DNA of 64,000 nucleotides from Coriobacteriaceae bacterium AF08-21 (GTDB taxonomy: Bacteria; Actinomycetota; Coriobacteriia; Coriobacteriales; Coriobacteriaceae), in NCBI GenBank assembly GCA_027687465.1, contig JAQCQR010000009.1:33289-97288 (forward strand), written 5' to 3'. The notes below the pieces were generated by a model that did not search any database, was not told the DNA's origin, and saw nothing but the letters and a program-made list of their open reading frames with translations. Positions within the stretch are counted from its first letter, which is position 1. The number at the start of each line of letters is the position of its first letter. Below are positions 4,396 through 15,276 of this stretch, piece by piece. The translations under genes were made by a program, and so were the position numbers.

Positions 4396-4486
4396 GGAGG
4401 GGTGGCAGAGTGGTTGAATGCGGCGGTCTCGAAAACCGTTTGGCCTGTATAAGGTCACGAGGGTTCGAATCCCTCCTCCTCCGCCA
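4396..4486 (+). tRNA. tRNA-Ser (anticodon CGA)
   Basis: This is a class II tRNA of 91 nt with anticodon loop CTCGAAA and a long variable arm. The acceptor GGAGGGG pairs with CTCCTCC with one G-T wobble, the T arm is GGGTTCGAATCCC, and CCA is encoded. It reads UCG codons. Confidence 0.96.
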
Positions 4487-4525: not shown

Positions 4526-4556
4526 TTATCGAGATACGTCTCGATCCCACGCTTCC

Positions 4557-4638
4557 CCAAACGTGTACGTCAGCCTCCAAAACCGACATATTTCGACATC
4601 TTTGGAGGCTGACGTACACGTTTGGATTGAGCTCACGG
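4557..4638 (+). repeat. Left palindrome-bearing inverted repeat of the nuclease unit
   Basis: Positions 4557-4581 and 4601-4625 form a perfect 25 bp inverted repeat around a 19 nt loop that itself holds CGACAT twice. The following 13 bases, ATTGAGCTCACGG, extend the match to the second copy at 5745-5827, which lies in the opposite orientation. The two copies bracket the gene at 4647-5654. No transposase is visible, so whether this is a mobile-element end or an extragenic palindrome of regulatory or terminator type is open. Confidence 0.85.
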
Positions 4639-4646
4639 GAGTGGCA

Positions 4647-5654
4647 CTATTCGGAAGGCACCTCTTCGTCTCGCATGCTTTTCCAGTTGCGGATAAGCGC
4701 CTTGCGTAGTTCGTTTTGCTCTCGCTGGTGCCCGGTATCGGTACAGCGAGGCATGCCGAGTGCTTCGCGAATGTTGTTCATGGCGCGGTGAAAGGCGAGC
4801 TGGCTGCCGAACTGAGCCGAAGTGAGCGTAACGATTCGATATCCCATTTGGGAGAGAACGGCCTCTCGCTCCGCATCTGCTCCTTTGCGCTCGAACTCAT
4901 CGTGAAAGCCGCCCTTATATTCGATACCGAGCTCCCTGCGCTTGTAGGTAACGATCGCATCGATTTTGAGTGTTCGAGCTTTGGCGCAATGCCAGAGACG
5001 TTGAGGGATCTCGAGCGGTTTGTTGAGTTCGATACCTCGGATGCCAACGCCGCCTTCGCTTGTTGGGAGCGAGAGGGCGATTGCCGAAGCGGTCTCCATA
5101 GGCGAGGCCGAGTGATCGTAGATGTGCCTGAGCGCGAGCCGTGCACGCGTGGCACCGGGTTTGCCGGGGTGCCGATCGAGCAGTTCGGTTATTTCATCCT
5201 TGGAGGAAGTGGCTGGTTGCTCGGTATAAGGGTCGGCGGGATTGAGCCTCATGCGATAATCGCCGCAAACTTCATAGCCATATTCGAGATATTCGATCCT
5301 ATCCATCCATTCGGCTGCGAGCACGAAGGTGAAGGCTTCGTCGGTGATAAAGATGCCGGGCGTCAACTCGTTAATATGCTCGTAGGGAAGATTTTGTCCA
5401 AGAATGTGGCAGACGACGCCTTTGGTACGAATTCGCTCAAATTCGAATACAACCGCGATATCGATAGTCTTAAGCATATCGGACGGAATGCCACAGTCGG
5501 TAAGGGCCTGTCGTATGCGCGCAACACGTTGCTGGGTGGAGATGCCTTGTGCGCCTATCTGGTAGTCGTGCCGCGCAAGAGACTGAACCAAATTCTGGGG
5601 TGCATGATGGACAAGCCATGCGGTTTTATGCGAAATGAGAACAGGGGTATCCAT
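4647..5654 (-). CDS. Predicted PD-(D/E)XK nuclease (DUF559/Vsr-like C-terminus)
   Basis: The 335-residue protein has no signal peptide or membrane segment. Residues 228-300 look like the Vsr/DUF559 branch of the PD-(D/E)XK nucleases: LKIDAIV supplies Asp232, LGIEYKG supplies Glu245 and Lys247, and AEREAVLSQMGYRIVTLT matches the conserved helix and strand that follow. Residues 1-130 may be an AbiEi-like or other specificity domain, but I see no certain motif. Residues 184-200 (SPMETASAIALSLPTSE) resemble the linker seen before DUF559 domains in actinobacterial proteins. The gene is alone, bracketed by two inverted palindrome-bearing repeats, with its stop only 9 bp from one of them. Its substrate is unknown; defence, repair or mobility roles are all possible. 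Confidence 0.7.
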   Translation of the reverse strand: MDTPVLISHKTAWLVHHAPQNLVQSLARHDYQIGAQGISTQQRVARIRQALTDCGIPSDMLKTIDIAVVFEFERIRTKGVVCHILGQNLPYEHINELTPGIFITDEAFTFVLAAEWMDRIEYLEYGYEVCGDYRMRLNPADPYTEQPATSSKDEITELLDRHPGKPGATRARLALRHIYDHSASPMETASAIALSLPTSEGGVGIRGIELNKPLEIPQRLWHCAKARTLKIDAIVTYKRRELGIEYKGGFHDEFERKGADAEREAVLSQMGYRIVTLTSAQFGSQLAFHRAMNNIREALGMPRCTDTGHQREQNELRKALIRNWKSMRDEEVPSE

Positions 5655-5744
5655 TGAGGGCCTCTCGCTCTGAGCCGGTATCCAACTCTTATGTCCGTTG
5701 AAGTGGGGAAATATACCGGATGTGAGTAAATCAACTCACTCATG

Positions 5745-5827
5745 CCGTGAGCTCAATCCAAACATGTACGTCAGCCTCCAAAGATGTCGAAAAATGTCGT
5801 TTTTGGAGGGTGACGTACATGTTTTGG
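5745..5827 (-). repeat. Right palindrome-bearing inverted repeat of the nuclease unit
   Basis: This is the reverse-oriented partner of the repeat at 4557-4638. Its arms are 5758-5782 and 5802-5827, with one mismatch and one inserted T. The loop differs from the reverse complement of the other loop at only two or three positions. The inner 13 bases CCGTGAGCTCAAT (5745-5757) also match. I saw no clear target-site duplication outside the pair. The rest of the 5655-5958 gap holds the promoter of the nuclease gene and the leader of the next gene. Confidence 0.85.
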
Positions 5828-5958
5828 ATCCCTGGCATTCCAGTAACGCCACGCCCCCACCCGGTCCCGACCGTTTACCGAGCAATAGGGTCGCCACGCC
5901 CGCCAACCATGTACTATGTACGGGCATTGTCTAAACCCACGATCCAAAGGACCCCATC

Positions 5959-6648
5959 TTGCCCGTCATCGCCGCCGTAACCGTTACCTCACATGCCTCG
6001 GATGCCATGGTCGCCATTCCGTTTTGGCTCGAGATGTTCGCTGTTGTCGCTGCATCGATCTCGGGTGTGTTGGTCGCGCGCGAGCACAAGCTCGACCTGG
6101 TGGGCGCCGTCGCGCTCGCCGTGGTCTGTGGACTGGGCGGCGGTCTTTTGCGCGATATGACGCTGCAGGTGGGCAACGTCTACATCCTCAACCAGCCGAT
6201 GGCGCTGCCGCTCTCCATCGCCACGGCGGCAATCATCTACATCTTCCCGGCAATCGTCGATAAGCCCGAAAAACTCATTCCCCTGCTCGACATCATCTCG
6301 GTCGGCATCTATGCGGCAACCGGCGCGGACAAGGCGTTGGTGTACGGATTTGCGCCCGCCGTATGTATCATGATGGGCTTCTTTACCGCCGTGGGCGGCG
6401 GCATGCTGCGCGACGGCTTTATGGGCGTGGTCCCGGGCATTTTCCAACGCACCAACTTCTATGCCATCGCGGCCATCGCCGGATCGGCAAGCTATGTAGC
6501 CCTCGTCATGAGCGGCCTCATGAGCAATGTTGCCGCGCTGATCGTATGCGTTGTCGTGACCATGGGTCTGCGCTGGCTCTCGCTGCGCTTTGACATCAAA
6601 AGCCCCACCGAAGAAGACATCGCGCGCTTTTTGCATCGCAAAAAGTAG
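5959..6648 (+). CDS. TRIC/UPF0126-family membrane protein
   Basis: The 229-residue product has about seven hydrophobic segments in two similar halves. LVGAVALAVVCGLGGGLLRD in the first half and GFFTAVGGGMLRDGFMGVVP in the second are the duplicated Gly-rich motifs of the UPF0126 (YicG-like) family, whose members resemble trimeric intracellular cation channels. The start is a TTG at 5959, with AAAGGA seven bases upstream. It sits in the inner membrane and probably conducts a monovalent cation, but the physiological substrate is unknown. It is a plus-strand gene in a mainly minus-strand region, about 100 bp ahead of the next plus-strand gene. Confidence 0.85.
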   Translation: MPVIAAVTVTSHASDAMVAIPFWLEMFAVVAASISGVLVAREHKLDLVGAVALAVVCGLGGGLLRDMTLQVGNVYILNQPMALPLSIATAAIIYIFPAIVDKPEKLIPLLDIISVGIYAATGADKALVYGFAPAVCIMMGFFTAVGGGMLRDGFMGVVPGIFQRTNFYAIAAIAGSASYVALVMSGLMSNVAALIVCVVVTMGLRWLSLRFDIKSPTEEDIARFLHRKK

Positions 6649-6754
6649 GTAGCGCGGGCTCATTCTTCGAAATGCAACCGAGAGGTTCTTTTAGAGCGCC
6701 CGCGCGTTGGGTACCCTGTTAAGTGCATATCGAGCATCTGACGAAGGATTCACT

Positions 6755-8023: not shown

Positions 8024-9817
8024 TTACTCCTCAGAGCCGTCGTCGCGCCTACGACTACGGATGAGATGCGCCACACCGATGCACAGTACCGCGCCACCAG
8101 CAATCCAAGTGAACGTCACGCCATTAAGGCCGGTGAGCGGGAGGCTGGAGCCCTTCTTGTCGACGATGGTGAAGCTGAGCTTGCCGGCCCTGGCCGTTGC
8201 GGTGCCGCCCATGACAACATCTTTGCCAGCATCAATGGTGGAAGTATCAAGCTTCACATTCTTACCTGTTTGATCGAACGTACTCTTGATAGTGAAAGTA
8301 ACGCCATTTGCTGCAGAGTTATTGTAACCGGGCGCCGGGGTGACCTCTTTAAGGATGTAGGTGCCCTCATCAAGGCCGACAACGTTAATCTTGCCGTTTG
8401 CGTCGGTCGTCAGCTCGGCCAGTTTACCATCCGTCGTCTTGGTGCCGTTTGCCATAATAAAGGTGTCGGCATCATCGCCCTGCTCTTGCAGCGTGAACAC
8501 AACACCGGCGAGAGGCGGATTGTTAGTCTCTGAACCAACCTTGGTTACATCGATACCATAGGTATAGTCGTAAGCAGGATGTTTAACCGTGGTACCGGTG
8601 GTACCGGTACCCTCGGCGTGAGGATTGTTGGAATAGGTCAACGTAACGGTATTCTCCTGGGGGTTACCCACCAAGCTGCCAAACTCCGTTTTAATCGCAC
8701 CATCCTTGCCGTTTACGAAAATCTTTGTAGAATCAAGCTTGGCCTGATATTCAACGGTCACATGGGACGATTCGCTAACGGTAATGGGTTGATTATTCTC
8801 ATCAAAGCATGCTTTAAGATTCGTAAAGCTAACGGTAAGCACGTTATCCCTTGAGAAGGCTCTGGTATAGTCACCGCTCCTAACGGTCTTACCATCAATC
8901 TTAACCGTCACAGCAGGGGTCGTGCTGCCGACCTCATCAGTAAACATGGGCGTCATGGATTTGGGCAGCTCATCCGTGAAAGTGTACGTATAGGCACTGT
9001 AGGTGTTGATGTTGCTCGCAACCGTGCCGGTAAGCTGGTACTCGATAAACTGATCCATGCGGGAGTCGGCGGACTTATTGGGGCTCTTAAACACGTCGGC
9101 ACCAAACGTGCCGTCCTTGTCATCCTTGACGGCCTTAGTCACGTTGGGGACGTTCTTCTTGGGCTCCGCATTTACATCGGCGCCGCCGACGATGGTGAAA
9201 ATCGGTGAGGTGAACGCGTCGTCATTACCGTTGGTCTTATTGGTATCCTTAGTCGAACCGGGCCGATCGGTCACAAAGAGCCAGTAACCAGCGGGCAGAT
9301 TATTGAATTTACCATCGGGCGAGGTTTTCCAGCCGGTAGCGTCGTCAGTTGCGGTTACCCCTTCCAAGGCTTTGGCGATTTTGTCGAGCACGCTGCCGGA
9401 ATCAACCTTTACTTTCTCGCCAACGTTATTGCCGGCTTTTTGCGCAATGTAATCCGCCCATTCCTGCGGAGTAGCAGTAGAACCGGGCGCATCGGACACA
9501 CCAGCAAACACGCCCTTCACGGCTTTCTCGGCATCAGTCGATGCCCACGTGATATCGGAAAGCGTCTTCTTCCCCGCAGAATCCCAATCATCAGCGCTTG
9601 TCCGATCCTGCGTAACCGTAGCGGAGAAAATCTTGATGCCCTTAAAGGTCGTACCCTCGTAGCCGCCATCTTCAATCGTCACATTACCGCTCGTCGTAGC
9701 CACAGGCGTACCCGCTGCAAACGCCATACCCACTGGCGTCACTACTCCGCCGAAGCTCAGCGCTGCTGTGAGGCCGGCGGTTACTGCCAGGCGTGCGATG
9801 TTCTTGGTTATCTTCAT
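8024..9817 (-). CDS. LPXTG pilus protein, probable major pilin
   Basis: The 597-residue protein has an N-terminal signal peptide (cleavage near GMAFAAG), then a fimbrial isopeptide-forming D2-like domain (about 230-400). A Cna-B/SpaA-type domain follows (about 420-510, VTKVGSETNNPPLAGVVFTL), then the cell-wall sorting signal LPLTG at 559-563, a membrane helix and an Arg-rich tail. Such proteins are joined covalently by a class C sortase into pili. It is the last of three genes in one minus-strand operon, 121 bp after the previous one. Its position and domain pattern suggest the shaft subunit; that assignment is inference. Confidence 0.85.
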   Translation of the reverse strand: MKITKNIARLAVTAGLTAALSFGGVVTPVGMAFAAGTPVATTSGNVTIEDGGYEGTTFKGIKIFSATVTQDRTSADDWDSAGKKTLSDITWASTDAEKAVKGVFAGVSDAPGSTATPQEWADYIAQKAGNNVGEKVKVDSGSVLDKIAKALEGVTATDDATGWKTSPDGKFNNLPAGYWLFVTDRPGSTKDTNKTNGNDDAFTSPIFTIVGGADVNAEPKKNVPNVTKAVKDDKDGTFGADVFKSPNKSADSRMDQFIEYQLTGTVASNINTYSAYTYTFTDELPKSMTPMFTDEVGSTTPAVTVKIDGKTVRSGDYTRAFSRDNVLTVSFTNLKACFDENNQPITVSESSHVTVEYQAKLDSTKIFVNGKDGAIKTEFGSLVGNPQENTVTLTYSNNPHAEGTGTTGTTVKHPAYDYTYGIDVTKVGSETNNPPLAGVVFTLQEQGDDADTFIMANGTKTTDGKLAELTTDANGKINVVGLDEGTYILKEVTPAPGYNNSAANGVTFTIKSTFDQTGKNVKLDTSTIDAGKDVVMGGTATARAGKLSFTIVDKKGSSLPLTGLNGVTFTWIAGGAVLCIGVAHLIRSRRRDDGSEE

Positions 9818-9938
9818 GTTTGGTCCTCTTTCTTGGAGGGTTCTCTAGTAACTTTTTCAAAACCAATGATCATCAGGTCGGTAGACCTGCGCGTCACTCG
9901 CTACGGAGGCAGTACGCCATTGAGCAAGGGGGGGGCAA

Positions 9939-11582
9939 TTATTTTTCACGGCGACCTCCTCCCCGCTTGATGACGAGCGCGACAACAATAGCCGCCACTC
10001 CGATGGCAGCCAAAGCCGCCACCAGCACCAACGCTCTATCTCCCGTCGAGGGCATAAAGCCTCGACTTGCTTCTTTGCTTGGGGTGTTGAGCACCGACAG
10101 CTCAATCGAACCCGTCCCGGCATCGGCGGTATCAACCCGTAGGGGGCTTTCGACCGACACGGTCACCTTGGGCTTCGCGGCCGTCCCCTGTTTAACGTCC
10201 AGGCCCTCGGCCGTAACCGTCACCGTACGTTTGCCTTCAAAGGCGGCGTATCCCTTGGGAGCCGCGGCCTCTTCGACGGTGTAGACACCCGCGTCCACAC
10301 CGGTCAATTCCACGTGGCCGTCCGCGCCCGTGGTGACGTGCGCGGCGGCATCCGTCGACCACGAGCCGTCAGTCGTTAGAATGCGCCCGCGGTCATCGAT
10401 GATGCGCAGCTTGGCGCCCGCGAGCGGTTTATCGTCCGAGCTTGAGCGCTTGATCAGACTGAGTCCCCAGGTGTAGGCGCACGCATCGTCGCTCGGCGTG
10501 CGGGTGAATCCGGCGTCGCCGGACTGGCCGGCGAGGGGAGAGCGCGGGTAGCGCAGGTAGACCTCGTTGGGGTTGCCCTTGGTGGCACCTCGATTGCAGT
10601 TGGCCCCCAACGGCGCATTGTAGACAGCAACCACGCGGGCGCCCGTGGCGAAGGCGTCGGCCCCGCCGAGCGCGGCGATGAGGTCGCCGGTGCGCACGGT
10701 GAAGGCATTGCCCTCGACCGAGACCCTGCACCGTGAAGTAATGTCCGTCCACCCTTTAGCCGGCGTCGAGCTGGCGTTGCCGCCCTCACATGCGACGGCG
10801 TCGAAGCCGCCGTCCGCGCCCGCCGCCACGTACACGCGCATGCTCGCGGCCACCTTGGAGGGGTCGAGCCCCGCGCTCATGGTGTCGACGAACCGCACCG
10901 CATAGGTGTCGTAGGCAGCAAGGCCCGCCGGGACCGTGGCAGAGAGGCGCCAGTACAGGTCGTCGGCGACCGTGGCGTCGGCGGCCTTCTGCCATGCGGC
11001 GGTGCCGTCCTCCAGCACGTGCTTGGCCACCTTGGGGGTCGCCGCCTTGGGCTTGACGGTGACGGCGCTGCCGCCGACCAGGGCCATGATCGGCGCGGTG
11101 CCGGCCTCGCCCTGGGCGATGGCGTCGTCGTCGGCGACGATGAGCCAGTAGCCGCAGGGCAGCTCGGCCACCGTGCCCGCGTTAAGGGCCACGGAAGGGA
11201 CGCCGGCATTGCAAATCGCGCGGGCAAGCTTTGCCGTCAGCGCAGCCGTCATGTGCCCGTCGGCATTCATCCATTGGGCAGCATCTTGCGCCGTCGATGC
11301 CGAGCCATCAAGTCCAGCGTCATGAAGCACGGGAAGAACGGCATGGCGAACGACATCATTCGCCCACGTTACATCGGTTGCAACCTTTTGGTCGACATCG
11401 TCATCGTCGACAACGGTCGCCGAAAAGAGCTGGTGCGCGTCATACCGCGTCGCAACCGTACCGTCCACCGTAATGGCTCCGGTGTCGGCAGCACGGGCCG
11501 CCCCAGGGGCAATCGCGAAAGACAGAATAGCGACCATGATTATCGTCGCGGCAGCCAACAAGCGGCGGTTAAGTCTACTCAC
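9939..11582 (-). CDS. LPXTG-like pilus protein, probable minor/basal pilin
   Basis: I start this 547-residue protein at the GTG at 11582, which has GAGGTGG five bases upstream and overlaps the end of the preceding gene by 8 bp. It has a signal peptide (LLAAATIIMVAILSFAIAPG), a D2-like pilin region and a Cna-B-type domain near 400-480 (PLAGAKLRIIDDRGRILTTD). The sorting signal is the variant MPSTG at 510-514, followed by a membrane helix and a basic tail. A Met in place of Leu is unusual but known in sortase substrates. The overlap with the large adhesin gene indicates translational coupling. Confidence 0.82.
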   Translation of the reverse strand: MSRLNRRLLAAATIIMVAILSFAIAPGAARAADTGAITVDGTVATRYDAHQLFSATVVDDDDVDQKVATDVTWANDVVRHAVLPVLHDAGLDGSASTAQDAAQWMNADGHMTAALTAKLARAICNAGVPSVALNAGTVAELPCGYWLIVADDDAIAQGEAGTAPIMALVGGSAVTVKPKAATPKVAKHVLEDGTAAWQKAADATVADDLYWRLSATVPAGLAAYDTYAVRFVDTMSAGLDPSKVAASMRVYVAAGADGGFDAVACEGGNASSTPAKGWTDITSRCRVSVEGNAFTVRTGDLIAALGGADAFATGARVVAVYNAPLGANCNRGATKGNPNEVYLRYPRSPLAGQSGDAGFTRTPSDDACAYTWGLSLIKRSSSDDKPLAGAKLRIIDDRGRILTTDGSWSTDAAAHVTTGADGHVELTGVDAGVYTVEEAAAPKGYAAFEGKRTVTVTAEGLDVKQGTAAKPKVTVSVESPLRVDTADAGTGSIELSVLNTPSKEASRGFMPSTGDRALVLVAALAAIGVAAIVVALVIKRGGGRREK

Positions 11583-14500
11583 GGCTACCACCTCGACCTT
11601 GATCGCGATGGCGACGAGCATGCATCCACGTCGCAGCAAAACACAGCAGCGATGCACCAGCCAGATACGTCATAGTCAAGCCAGCCCCGCCCGCCTCGGG
11701 AAGCGTGGTCGAATACCTGTTAGTAAAGGTCGGCGGGGTCGAAGAGGTGCCATCGTAGGTGACGGCGGCGTTGAGTTTCCCCTTGCCATTAGTCACAACA
11801 ACCTCAACCTCGTGCTCGGTTGTGTCGTAGGTGATGTGGTCTTTGACACCATTCACCGCGCCCTCGGGGACGACCTCGGAGATAAAGTACTTATAGGTCC
11901 CCTCCTCGGTGTAATCCAGAACAAAGTTGATATTGCCGTTTGCATCGTTCTTGGTTGTCTTGAGAACCTTGTGATTTGCATCTTTAAGCACAAATTCAAA
12001 CTGATCCCGCTGCAAAGTCGAGCCTTGGAGCGACTTGACGGCAGAAATCTCAGCCTGCCCACTATACGGTTCGTCAGAAACCATAATGTCAGTACTAGCC
12101 GTCGGGGTCTTGACGACGGGACACGCCCGCTTCAAGCTCTCTACCTGAGCAAGGGCATCTCTGTATTGTTGCTCGTCTTGCCCTTTCAACATAATCCATA
12201 TGGGTTCGGAAATCGCAGTATAGCCCTCGGGCGCGGTGGTTTCTTTGAGACAGTACAGCGTATAGGCCTTCATCTTATTGCCCGCAGATCCAAACGCTGC
12301 CTCACCATTGCTATTAGTCGTGACCTTCTGAAACTCAGTCATGGCGCCGTCAACGCCCGACTTCAGAGCCTCTTCCATATCGACCTCATAGAGCGTGAAT
12401 TCGGCACCAGACAGCTTCTTTGTAATATCGCTCGCATCGACCTTGGTCACCGTGATACCGCCACCGCTACCGACAGCCGAACCATTCAGCTTTTGAATTT
12501 CCCAGTCTTTTGAATGGACCGTATCACCGTCGTAGACACCCGTAAGCGACGCTTTATTGCTCAGAGAAACCTTTTCCCTCTCGTTACCTGCAGGAATCAC
12601 TTCATACTCAACTTTGAGATACTCCTCATCGGGCACGCGGAGCGTCATCTTTGTACATGCCGCGCCGTTTTCATCTTCAATGGTCCTAGCGGAAACGGGG
12701 CATTTATCAGAGCCAAGCAACTTCCAGACTGCCCCATCGAATTGGTACACCTTGACCGAATCCGTCACCAGCGTGCACTTGGCATCCATGACATCGACAA
12801 GCTCAAGGAAGTCGCTGTCGCTCTTAAGGTTAACTGCCGATTCGTTAACCCAGATGGTGTATTTGATACGGTTGCTGCCAGCGACCTGATCTCCGGTCTT
12901 TTGTAGCACGTTGTTCTCAATGGTGACGGTGCTGCTACCGGAGATACCGGTTTTGAACTCTTTATCACCCGACTCGGCACTAGCCGAGTTTTCGAGCGTG
13001 GCCGAGTTCGTGGAAGTGTTGAGCGCTCTGCGCTTTATTGCCGTTTGAAACGTAAGCTTGACATAGCCGGCATATTCACCGAGTGCCGTCGTGGGGATGG
13101 AGAAAGTAACTTCATTACCCGAAACGCTCCCTTCAACACTCCGATTCGCCACTTCACGTTCGGCTTCTCTACGCTCGTCATAGGGATTCGCATAAAGCGT
13201 ATATGTGGCCGATCCGGGAACAAAACTCATAGTTCCGTCCGCCGGCAAGGTATCCTTAATCGTTATGGGCTGACCGCCAAGCTTTCCAGCACCATAGTGT
13301 TGACCAGCAGGAGTCTTATAGCGGTTGGCATAAACCGTCCACGTCGCAATCCAGGCGCCCTTTTCAGTTGAACCGGGCTCGACCTGCGACCAATCAAATT
13401 TGCCATCCCACGTATATCCATCCGACGATTTGTCCACATCAGGCGTCTCGGAGTTATTAACGATGTAATATGGATCATTCGATTTCTTATTAATGGGCTG
13501 CCCTGCAAACGGAAAATTAACGGCTGCTAAATTCCAGTACTGACCATCGAGGTTGTCGGTCACGGTCGTATAGGTAACATCAATCTGGTACCCGCTGGCT
13601 ACCAATGCGCTTCTCACCCTCTCAGTGTTGCGCAACCGAATATTAAAGTTAATTTTGGTCTCAGTCGTTAACCCATTAAAGAAATAATAGTCCCCTCTTT
13701 CGCTGGTCCCCTCAGTAAGCGTAAACCCACCAATCTTTACGGTAAGCGACTCAACCTTAAGGTTCTGTTTGTATGTACTTTGAAATGTGTCTAGGATCTC
13801 AATCTTAGAAATATCGTCCGTTCCGGGAAGCTTCACATGGGTGGTCCACGTCGCCCGGCCTTTATCATCTTTTGAATCAAGCTTTTTGTTGATCGTCACC
13901 TGGTCGGCAACACCGCGCCAAAACGTTGCTGTGCTCGCTCCTAATGGCGACGTCGTTCCCTCATGCTCAATCCTCGCCGTATTTTTAACGGACTCATACG
14001 AGTCTAGATTGTTCATCTTGGTGTGATAGACAATGCGATAGGGCTGATACTTATCTTCGTTAGACAAATTTGAAAACGTATAGCTAAACGTCGTGCCGGT
14101 AGAGCCATCGAGATTGCCGTCGGCAATCTTATTCTCGCCGTAAAGCCCCTTATAAACAACGTATTCACCCGTATAAGTCTGTTTGTCATCCAGCGTGTCG
14201 GTGAATGTATAGCCATTCATGTCGGTTTTGACATCACCGTTGTTGAGCGTAACAATCCATTTGATATCGGACGGCGTTCCGGTGCCATCGCTCTTCTGGA
14301 TCATGTCATAGCGAAACCGATTTGCTACCACGCCTTCGCAACCGCTTGATTCCTTTTTGTTTTGGCCCCATGTCCAGTCGGCTTTGTTTTTTGAACCGCT
14401 GAGCTCATTAATCCAAACATAGTTGTCCACAGAAACATTCGGATTCATCACCGAATCATAGGTAACCGTATTGGTCCCCTTGGACAAGTTACCCAGGCTC

Positions 14501-15276
14501 AAAGTCGCGGTCTGCCCCTCAATGCTCGGCTGCTGCTTGAGCGTCTCGCCGTTCAACTTAAACGACCCAGGCACAAACGAAAAATTCTCACCAAGCACAT
14601 CAGTGAGTTGGACATTTTGAGCATAGGACTCGACCTCGAGATTGAGGGTCCATGTTACTTTTCCCTCGCCGCCGTTTTGAGGGACGAACTGTCCCTTCTT
14701 CTCTCCCGTCACAGCGCCGTCCCTGGTCGCAATGTCGATTCCGGTCGTTCCGGGAAACTCAACTTTTGTTGTATTGCCGGAGCCAACGTTCTCATTTGCT
14801 AGCTTGAATGAAAAATTAACACCGACATGAACATCGGACGGATTCGTATTAATCCAGTTTTGGTTGAAAGTGAAAATTAGCTTATTATTCTCGCACTTCC
14901 AGGTGCCAGCCTCTTTTTTCTGACCGTCATAGAGCACCCCGCCTTCAACATTCAATGTAACATTGCTCGGAAGAGAGTACTCCGCAACATTTTGCGCCAA
15001 GCTCGGGGTATGGCTCGGCTTAAACTTCGCGCTAAACGAACCGTAGAGCGTGTCGGTCGAAAGCACGGCGGTATTACTCAAAGGCGTTTTACGACCCTCA
15101 TCGGTAAACAGCTCAACCGTAACGTCCGCCGTCTTCTCATCAATCACAATCGGCGTCGGCGTCGTCACGTCCTCGGCGCGCACGGGGGATGCACCATGAA
15201 AAACCGCGGCGGTAAGGCTAATTAAAATGAAGATCAGGGCCGCCATACCAAGCGACCGTGAGCGGTGTGCGTCCAT
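11575..15276 (-). CDS. Large LPXTG surface adhesin, probable pilus tip
   Basis: The 1233-residue protein starts with a signal peptide (AALIFILISLTAAVFHGAS). A long stretch of collagen-binding/adhesin-type beta domains (about 40-900) follows, with repeated GxTFTDTL-like segments. Next come a Cna-B domain (about 965-1065, VTKVDASDITKKLSGAEFTL) and a Spy0128/FctA-type pilin domain (about 1080-1185, VKSLQGSTLQRDQFEFVLKD). It ends with LPEAG (1192-1196), a hydrophobic helix and a basic tail. This layout fits a tip adhesin held by sortase. It is the first gene of the operon, and the following pilin gene starts inside its end. The DNA is less GC-rich than neighbouring housekeeping genes, which suggests acquisition or fast evolution. 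Confidence 0.84.
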   Translation of the reverse strand: MDAHRSRSLGMAALIFILISLTAAVFHGASPVRAEDVTTPTPIVIDEKTADVTVELFTDEGRKTPLSNTAVLSTDTLYGSFSAKFKPSHTPSLAQNVAEYSLPSNVTLNVEGGVLYDGQKKEAGTWKCENNKLIFTFNQNWINTNPSDVHVGVNFSFKLANENVGSGNTTKVEFPGTTGIDIATRDGAVTGEKKGQFVPQNGGEGKVTWTLNLEVESYAQNVQLTDVLGENFSFVPGSFKLNGETLKQQPSIEGQTATLSLGNLSKGTNTVTYDSVMNPNVSVDNYVWINELSGSKNKADWTWGQNKKESSGCEGVVANRFRYDMIQKSDGTGTPSDIKWIVTLNNGDVKTDMNGYTFTDTLDDKQTYTGEYVVYKGLYGENKIADGNLDGSTGTTFSYTFSNLSNEDKYQPYRIVYHTKMNNLDSYESVKNTARIEHEGTTSPLGASTATFWRGVADQVTINKKLDSKDDKGRATWTTHVKLPGTDDISKIEILDTFQSTYKQNLKVESLTVKIGGFTLTEGTSERGDYYFFNGLTTETKINFNIRLRNTERVRSALVASGYQIDVTYTTVTDNLDGQYWNLAAVNFPFAGQPINKKSNDPYYIVNNSETPDVDKSSDGYTWDGKFDWSQVEPGSTEKGAWIATWTVYANRYKTPAGQHYGAGKLGGQPITIKDTLPADGTMSFVPGSATYTLYANPYDERREAEREVANRSVEGSVSGNEVTFSIPTTALGEYAGYVKLTFQTAIKRRALNTSTNSATLENSASAESGDKEFKTGISGSSTVTIENNVLQKTGDQVAGSNRIKYTIWVNESAVNLKSDSDFLELVDVMDAKCTLVTDSVKVYQFDGAVWKLLGSDKCPVSARTIEDENGAACTKMTLRVPDEEYLKVEYEVIPAGNEREKVSLSNKASLTGVYDGDTVHSKDWEIQKLNGSAVGSGGGITVTKVDASDITKKLSGAEFTLYEVDMEEALKSGVDGAMTEFQKVTTNSNGEAAFGSAGNKMKAYTLYCLKETTAPEGYTAISEPIWIMLKGQDEQQYRDALAQVESLKRACPVVKTPTASTDIMVSDEPYSGQAEISAVKSLQGSTLQRDQFEFVLKDANHKVLKTTKNDANGNINFVLDYTEEGTYKYFISEVVPEGAVNGVKDHITYDTTEHEVEVVVTNGKGKLNAAVTYDGTSSTPPTFTNRYSTTLPEAGGAGLTMTYLAGASLLCFAATWMHARRHRDQGRGGSRE

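Follow-up and report, generated by a model that had tools for sequence, protein, structure and literature searches.

A Vsr-like nuclease gene bracketed by its own palindrome in Collinsella: a candidate homing-type gene cassette

Introduction

Among described systems, those closest to the locus reported here are the REP/RAYT units (REPtrons), EDxHD/Vsr-like homing endonucleases such as I-Bth0305I, and integron cassettes. Repetitive extragenic palindromes (REP) are 20–40 bp long (PMC3733652, in the part available), and co-evolution of the enzyme with its palindrome has been reported for REP/RAYT units (available part of PMC8266576). Here we describe a gene in a 64,000-nucleotide stretch of the genome of Coriobacteriaceae bacterium AF08-21 (contig JAQCQR010000009.1; the whole stretch is called the window below) that encodes a protein with a predicted Vsr/EDxHD-like nuclease domain and lies between two copies of a long palindrome. 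Its close relatives are bracketed as well, and some alleles that lack the gene retain a single palindrome; the one-palindrome alleles and the bracketing of each nuclease lineage by a palindrome of its own suggest a type of homing gene cassette that has not been described before. Literature titles and abstract openings contained nothing on palindrome-bracketed nucleases or Collinsella palindromes, and the available part of PMC10448857 mentions no palindromes.

The nuclease gene and its flanking repeats

A preliminary description of the window had reported two 82–83 bp repeats in opposite orientation, each consisting of a palindrome with 25 bp arms and a 13 bp inner extension. The repeats are real: they are 83 nt each (4556–4638 and 5745–5827), 93% complementary and spaced 1106 nt apart, and an arm 16-mer (at most two mismatches) has four matches in the 64 kb, every one inside the two palindromes, where 0.01 would be expected by chance (100 shuffles). 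The arm length holds for the left palindrome (4557–4581/4601–4625; 25 bp, 100% match), and the right arms are 23 bp long with a 96% match (5760–5782/5802–5824). The left loop is asymmetric, with two CGACAT-like words, and the remainder of each repeat is the common inner extension. The space between the palindromes is occupied, as had been described, by the nuclease open reading frame alone (Table 1); the other listed frames overlap it.

The residues Asp232, Glu245 and Lys247 named in that description are all present. They lie in a C-terminal catalytic domain (residues ∼181–301) whose predicted structure matches the EDxHD/Vsr-like nuclease fold in a structure search; the model used was built from a broader alignment (mean predicted local distance difference test, pLDDT, of 89), a first model having been poor (mean 56). 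Asp232 and Glu245 are invariant across 17 relatives, among which Lys247 is confined to the window's lineage and is replaced elsewhere by Asp, Asn or His. Both Pfam similarities of the protein are sub-threshold (MTES_1575, 24 bits with a cut-off of 38.2; DUF559, 13.6 bits with a cut-off of 20.6), Pfam gave no match to a Y1 transposase domain, and the N-terminal ∼130 residues had no convincing fold match in structure searches, in which this domain was not searched alone. Orthologues at 87–98% identity occupy seven loci of C. aerofaciens or Collinsella sp., which places the host in the Collinsella aerofaciens group. The wider family is large, with members among the matches listed in 122 of the 148 related genomes searched, 43 of which belong to the window's genus, Collinsella. 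Viral contigs yielded no confirmed nuclease relative and no match to one pattern of the palindrome core.

Bracketing across the nuclease family

Relatives of the nuclease at 36–40% identity are likewise flanked by palindromes, but of different sequences. We scored a gene as bracketed when a hairpin of at least 38 nt lay no more than 900 bp away and a similar copy lay on the opposite side (threshold score 24), and applied this to 91 nuclease loci, 31 close and 60 distant. The close set comprises the window, 29 of the 35 matches with an E value up to 2.9e-53 and the truncated G010:C1 match (1.7e-48); the border, at E ∼3e-53, was set after the result had been seen. Thirty of the 31 close members scored positive, against two of the 60 distant ones and one of 138 other genes of the same regions (an earlier version of the flanking-repeat test, now superseded, gave 21/79 vs 2/153). 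All 31 have at least one palindrome alongside the gene and 29 have a clear pair, and six further close members outside the test have pairs at their positions, among the matches listed. This clade-specific bracketing bears out the earlier likening of the locus to a REP/RAYT unit with a Vsr/TnsA-like nuclease. One positive, L050, is doubtful (its score is exactly 24 and the contig stops 177 bp beyond the gene), and L057, the sole close negative, does have a second palindrome, ∼1.6 kb beyond the gene. The next loci by E value past the close set, L309, L063 and L064, are negative, L064 being close to the end of its contig; L309 (E 1.1e-52) falls inside the clade by tree and has one hairpin and no pair, and counting it as close gives 30/32. 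Opposite orientation of the repeats turned out not to be essential, since 10 of 15 rows have direct pairs, as do all 13 two-palindrome sites of locus 2 (below).

Four distant family members (L240, L244, L252 and L257) have long flanking repeats, mostly non-palindromic (alignment scores 70–204), which may reflect duplication or a different style of bracketing.

Eleven bracketed lineages were distinguished, between which the nuclease proteins are at most 59% identical, and across all of them the palindrome spans 64–74 bp. Palindromes of different lineages are mostly no more alike than shuffled sequence (shuffled maximum 16). Scores above this were found for L306/L307 (33), L307/L310 (25), L304 with L047 (22) and with L053 (19), L059/L308 (19), and the window group with L305 (23–26, the outer arm being in common); similarity of the proteins and similarity of the palindromes correlate weakly (Spearman 0.29).

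It might be that the palindromes insulate the nuclease gene as bidirectional transcription terminators or RNA-stability hairpins, and the compensatory nature of the stem changes, the short A/T runs at the ends of many arms and the position of the locus-2 palindrome after the stop codons of genes would all suit such a role. The window copies have no T run, however, and at loci 3 and 4 the palindrome has divergent genes on either side or precedes a gene, an arrangement ill suited to a terminator; nor would insulation lead one to expect empty sites with one palindrome, or a pair matched to the lineage, and we consider it improbable. Matches of the palindrome to known RNA families were all below the gathering scores. 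A role as operators, to which the nuclease would bind for self-repression as some antitoxins do, perhaps within a defence or conflict module, seems more remote again. A palindrome does precede the start codon, and another follows the stop, in the window and in other lineages, and MTES_1575-type Vsr nuclease domains occur in conflict-system proteins (PMC3710099, in the part available), but no PADLOC family matches the window nuclease at E up to 0.1, and self-repression requires no palindrome past the stop codon, no distant conserved copies and no empty allele with one palindrome.

Conserved loci, empty sites and cargo

The window-type palindrome was found in 22 of the 148 relatives, all of one genus (by covariance model, 22 of the 43 genus genomes), with 4–13 matches per genome, the two strands of one palindrome often being counted twice. 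These and the other genome-wide counts, for palindromes and nucleases alike, are among the matches listed, as are the sites that were followed up. Every followed site of this palindrome is one of four conserved chromosomal loci. All 58 fetched palindrome regions are at loci 2–4, and locus 1, the window's own site between tRNA-Ser and a membrane protein gene, was found through the stretch 5850–6650, which has a match in 42 of the 43 genus genomes. Locus 1 is readable in 21 genomes (L093 lacks the anchor): nine have the nuclease and two palindromes, four (G012, G029, G039 and G041) have one palindrome and no gene, and eight have neither; the gene is reversed in G005, G007 and G037.

The preliminary description had proposed a search for empty sites and other copies in related genomes, and both exist. 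When the gene-less allele of G039 (L088) is compared with the occupied L070, the outer flanks match on both sides and overlap only in the 67 bp palindrome. Three other one-palindrome alleles (L077, L085 and L092) match likewise, with 78–206 bp extra on one side of the palindrome. In a second lineage the empty site of G001 (L276) and the occupied L047 overlap in 66 bp, which is the palindrome. The same holds for nuclease-free cargo: L148 and L114, at locus 3, overlap in 74 bp, of which the palindrome is 69, and a 4.84 kb segment lies between two direct palindromes akin to those of the second lineage. Nine genomes were fetched for this segment; it is flanked by two palindromes in L294, L295, L296 and L298, absent from L301 with a precise single palindrome (overlap 81 bp, palindrome 67), accompanied by one palindrome in L297 and L300 and missing from L302 together with more sequence on one side, and L299 is ambiguous. 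Because the empty and occupied flanks overlap in a single palindrome, the inserted unit in the precise cases is, as judged from these alignments, the gene or genes plus one palindrome. At locus 2 the overlap is the palindrome plus ∼36–60 bp of left flank (four of the eight loci compared), and the gene-less alleles are not all of the one-palindrome form.

Locus 2 (22 genomes) has two palindromes, in one case three, around 0.5–5 kb of varying sequence in 13 genomes; the other genomes have one palindrome without cargo (2), one with cargo (1), breaks at contig ends (2) or none (4). Of the 19 regions of locus 3, 17 hold a single palindrome without cargo; an 1185 amino acid gene, presumably for a CydCD-like ABC transporter, is flanked by two palindromes in one region and by a single one in another. 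All 19 regions of locus 4 have a single palindrome. Unrelated genes are thus bracketed by the same palindromes as the nuclease, and the expectation that these always flank DUF559-type genes does not hold; further cargo includes an RHH-domain gene (Pfam) and what we take to be a sirtuin/macrodomain gene group.

The chief rival to an active nuclease is that the palindromes are passive sites, ordinary repeats between whose 67 bp direct copies RecA-type recombination deletes the insert, or adds it by way of circles, the nuclease being one cargo among others and perhaps a defence gene. Recombination between copies would by itself yield precise one-palindrome alleles, and the diverse cargo and the persistence of palindromes without the nuclease agree with it. 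It accounts for losses, but not for 11 nuclease lineages each with its own, mostly unrelated pair; it does not explain why neighbouring genes are not bracketed (30/31 vs 1/138), and it leaves the constant span of 64–74 bp unexplained. We regard it as unlikely.

Direct palindromes around diverse cargo, as at the 13 two-copy sites of locus 2, could also be the work of a recombinase resembling those of integrons or RAYT units, which would act in trans with the nuclease as cargo, and Y1 transposase genes are indeed present in 37 of the 43 genus genomes. An integron integrase (IntI) above the curated cut-off is found in none of the 43, which have only sub-threshold tyrosine recombinases, as do all 14 control genomes; the attC boxes RYYYAAC and GTTRRRY occur on one strand in none of 89 palindromes, and none of 20 sampled Y1 neighbourhoods contains the palindrome. 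Each palindrome lineage would moreover require an enzyme of its own, when an evident partner, the bracketed nuclease, is already at hand; we give this explanation little credence.

All four palindrome types searched genome-wide have copies besides the bracketing pair. The L047 type occurs in 22 of the 43 genus genomes (2–12 matches per genome, strands often counted twice), the G025 palindrome at four places besides its pair (none in five other genomes searched), and those of G047 and G051 at four and three other places, respectively (none in seven other genomes searched). Several contigs (G036:C104, G036:C52 and G043:C16) end within or beside a palindrome. These repeats break assemblies, and bracketed cargo would therefore be under-reported in draft genomes.

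Two further comparisons were set aside. The neighbours of locus 4 vary, as a cargo hotspot might, but several groups share the sequence adjacent to the palindrome and change further away, and the variation is not counted as evidence; and in a local gene-spacing control two palindrome-bearing pairs had the widest range, but some palindrome-free pairs vary too (gene-calling noise), and it is not relied on.

A homing-type reading

We give even chances to a cassette of homing type, formed by the Vsr/EDxHD-like nuclease and its own palindrome. From the fold, the size and the symmetry, the nuclease would bind as a dimer with a subunit on each palindrome arm, and would cut the palindrome itself or the cruciform that it forms. 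A solo palindrome broken in this way might then be repaired from palindrome–gene–palindrome DNA, with the gene or any passenger copied in, as the one-palindrome alleles hint. Recombination of the two flanking palindromes could later excise the insert and leave one palindrome, a step that would need no special enzyme. A broader proposal, for which the odds are somewhat against, is an autonomous class of palindrome–gene–palindrome mobile units, each with a cognate palindrome of ∼67 bp, in which unrelated genes move non-autonomously into solo palindromes and at least 11 enzyme/palindrome lineages differ together.

Three observations bear on the homing-type reading. First, and as the principal difficulty, the supposed target is intact on both sides of the gene, in the window and in the 29 of 31 close members with a clear pair. 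Second, the alleles of G009 and G012 resemble the occupied second locus only as far as the palindrome edge, with no palindrome remaining there, and the other flank of that locus was not found within the fetched region. Third, the preliminary description held that the proposed link would fall if the palindrome were widespread without the gene, the gene widespread without the palindrome, and empty sites lacking. The first part holds, with the palindrome in 22 of the 43 genus genomes and the orthologous nuclease in nine of those 22; the remainder fails, every close relative tested having a palindrome and empty sites having been found. For the second lineage (L047 type) the nuclease is present in 18 of 22 palindrome-bearing genomes. 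Genomes with palindromes and no nuclease imply that palindromes outlast the gene or that the gene arrives at palindromes.

The bracketing would link a large nuclease family without assigned function to a specific DNA site, with directly testable pairs of enzyme and target from at least 11 lineages. Should the nuclease work in the way suggested, Collinsella of the gut would possess a homing system able to move passenger genes as well, at fixed positions in the chromosome. Such a route to strain variation would stand between homing of the phage type and cassettes of the integron type, and every lineage would give a long-target nuclease whose target is already known.

Neighbouring features and side observations

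Table 1. Positions of the cassette and its neighbours in the window
Feature	Position	Strand	Remarks
tRNA-Ser (cga)	4396..4486	+	left neighbour; marks insertion site, locus 1
Left palindrome	4556..4625	+	∼20 bp beyond nuclease stop codon; palindrome profile score 80.9
Inner extension, 13 bp	4626..4638	+	inverted copy is 5745–5757; repeat arms 93%
Nuclease, 335 amino acids, bracketed clade	4647..5654	-	open reading frame list, Pfam, relatives' alignment, structure model
Inner extension, 13 bp	5745..5757	-	inverted copy is 4626–4638
Right palindrome	5758..5827	-	upstream of nuclease start; palindrome profile score 83.7
Membrane protein, 229 amino acids	5959..6648	+	right neighbour of cassette at locus 1

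The membrane protein to the right of the cassette is presumably TRIC/UPF0126-like, and three large genes on the minus strand at 8024–15276 resemble what we take to be sortase-anchored pilins or adhesins. Beyond tRNA-Ser(cga), locus-1 regions without the nuclease (L072, L075, L077, L079, L080, L085 and L087–L092) carry a reversed fragment like a tRNA-Ser 3′ end (approximately GGAGGGATTCGAACCC), which might be a scar left by an integrated element. To the left of the locus-2 palindrome, most of the regions L102–L113 have another hairpin repeat (GGGGACGTTCTTTAACGACTAGTCATTTAAGAACGTCCCC), in some of them partly duplicated together with the palindrome. In seven of the 19 locus-4 regions (L134, L137, L139, L145, L152, L156 and L159) the asymmetric core of the palindrome is inverted relative to similar flanks, the palindrome having flipped in place. 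IS110-family transposase genes (Pfam) lie ∼50 bp from both locus-2 palindromes of G007 (L104, 5989–7278 and 11051–12223) and ∼200 bp from the locus-4 palindrome of G036 (L129, 547–1656), as if IS110 elements also target the palindrome.

Comparison with known systems

Fungal mitochondrial double-hairpin elements and palindromic repeats are similar in being optional palindromes proposed to be mobile; they are mitochondrial and of other sequences, with no bracketed nuclease gene tied to them in the available part of the account (PMC7218506). To the MTES_1575/DUF559 Vsr-type domains the window nuclease may be linked by the sub-threshold similarity of its C-terminal domain, in which the catalytic Asp and Glu are conserved among the relatives; distant family members here are mostly unbracketed (2/60). 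Integron cassettes share the unit of a gene plus one palindromic site and the direct copies around diverse cargo, but form long arrays where two or three sites are seen here.

REP/RAYT units share an enzyme gene bracketed by lineage-specific palindromes, together with dispersed copies. Their enzyme is a HuH Y1 transposase, whereas that of the present cassette has a predicted Vsr/EDxHD-like nuclease fold; REP palindromes are shorter than the ∼67 bp seen here and reach high copy number, compared with few copies per genome; and one-palindrome empty sites and passenger genes are features of the present system, unlike REP/RAYT. Collinsella RAYT-like Y1 transposase genes (L191, L194 and L200) have hairpins of their own (approximately AACCTGCCAAAAAGGGACAGGTT), unrelated to the window palindrome.

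The EDxHD/Vsr-like homing endonucleases resemble the cassette in the predicted fold of the catalytic domain and in gene-less alleles that otherwise match the occupied ones (L088 vs L070; L276 vs L047). Insertion of such an endonuclease gene interrupts and so protects its target, whereas here, supposing that the palindrome serves as target, its two copies are whole. The system would thus work like a homing endonuclease, but is not filed as a member because its target is not interrupted. It differs from the I-Bth0305I type also in residing in bacterial chromosomes, in having its presumed target in two clear copies around the gene and again at a few conserved loci, and in the passengers that are not nucleases.
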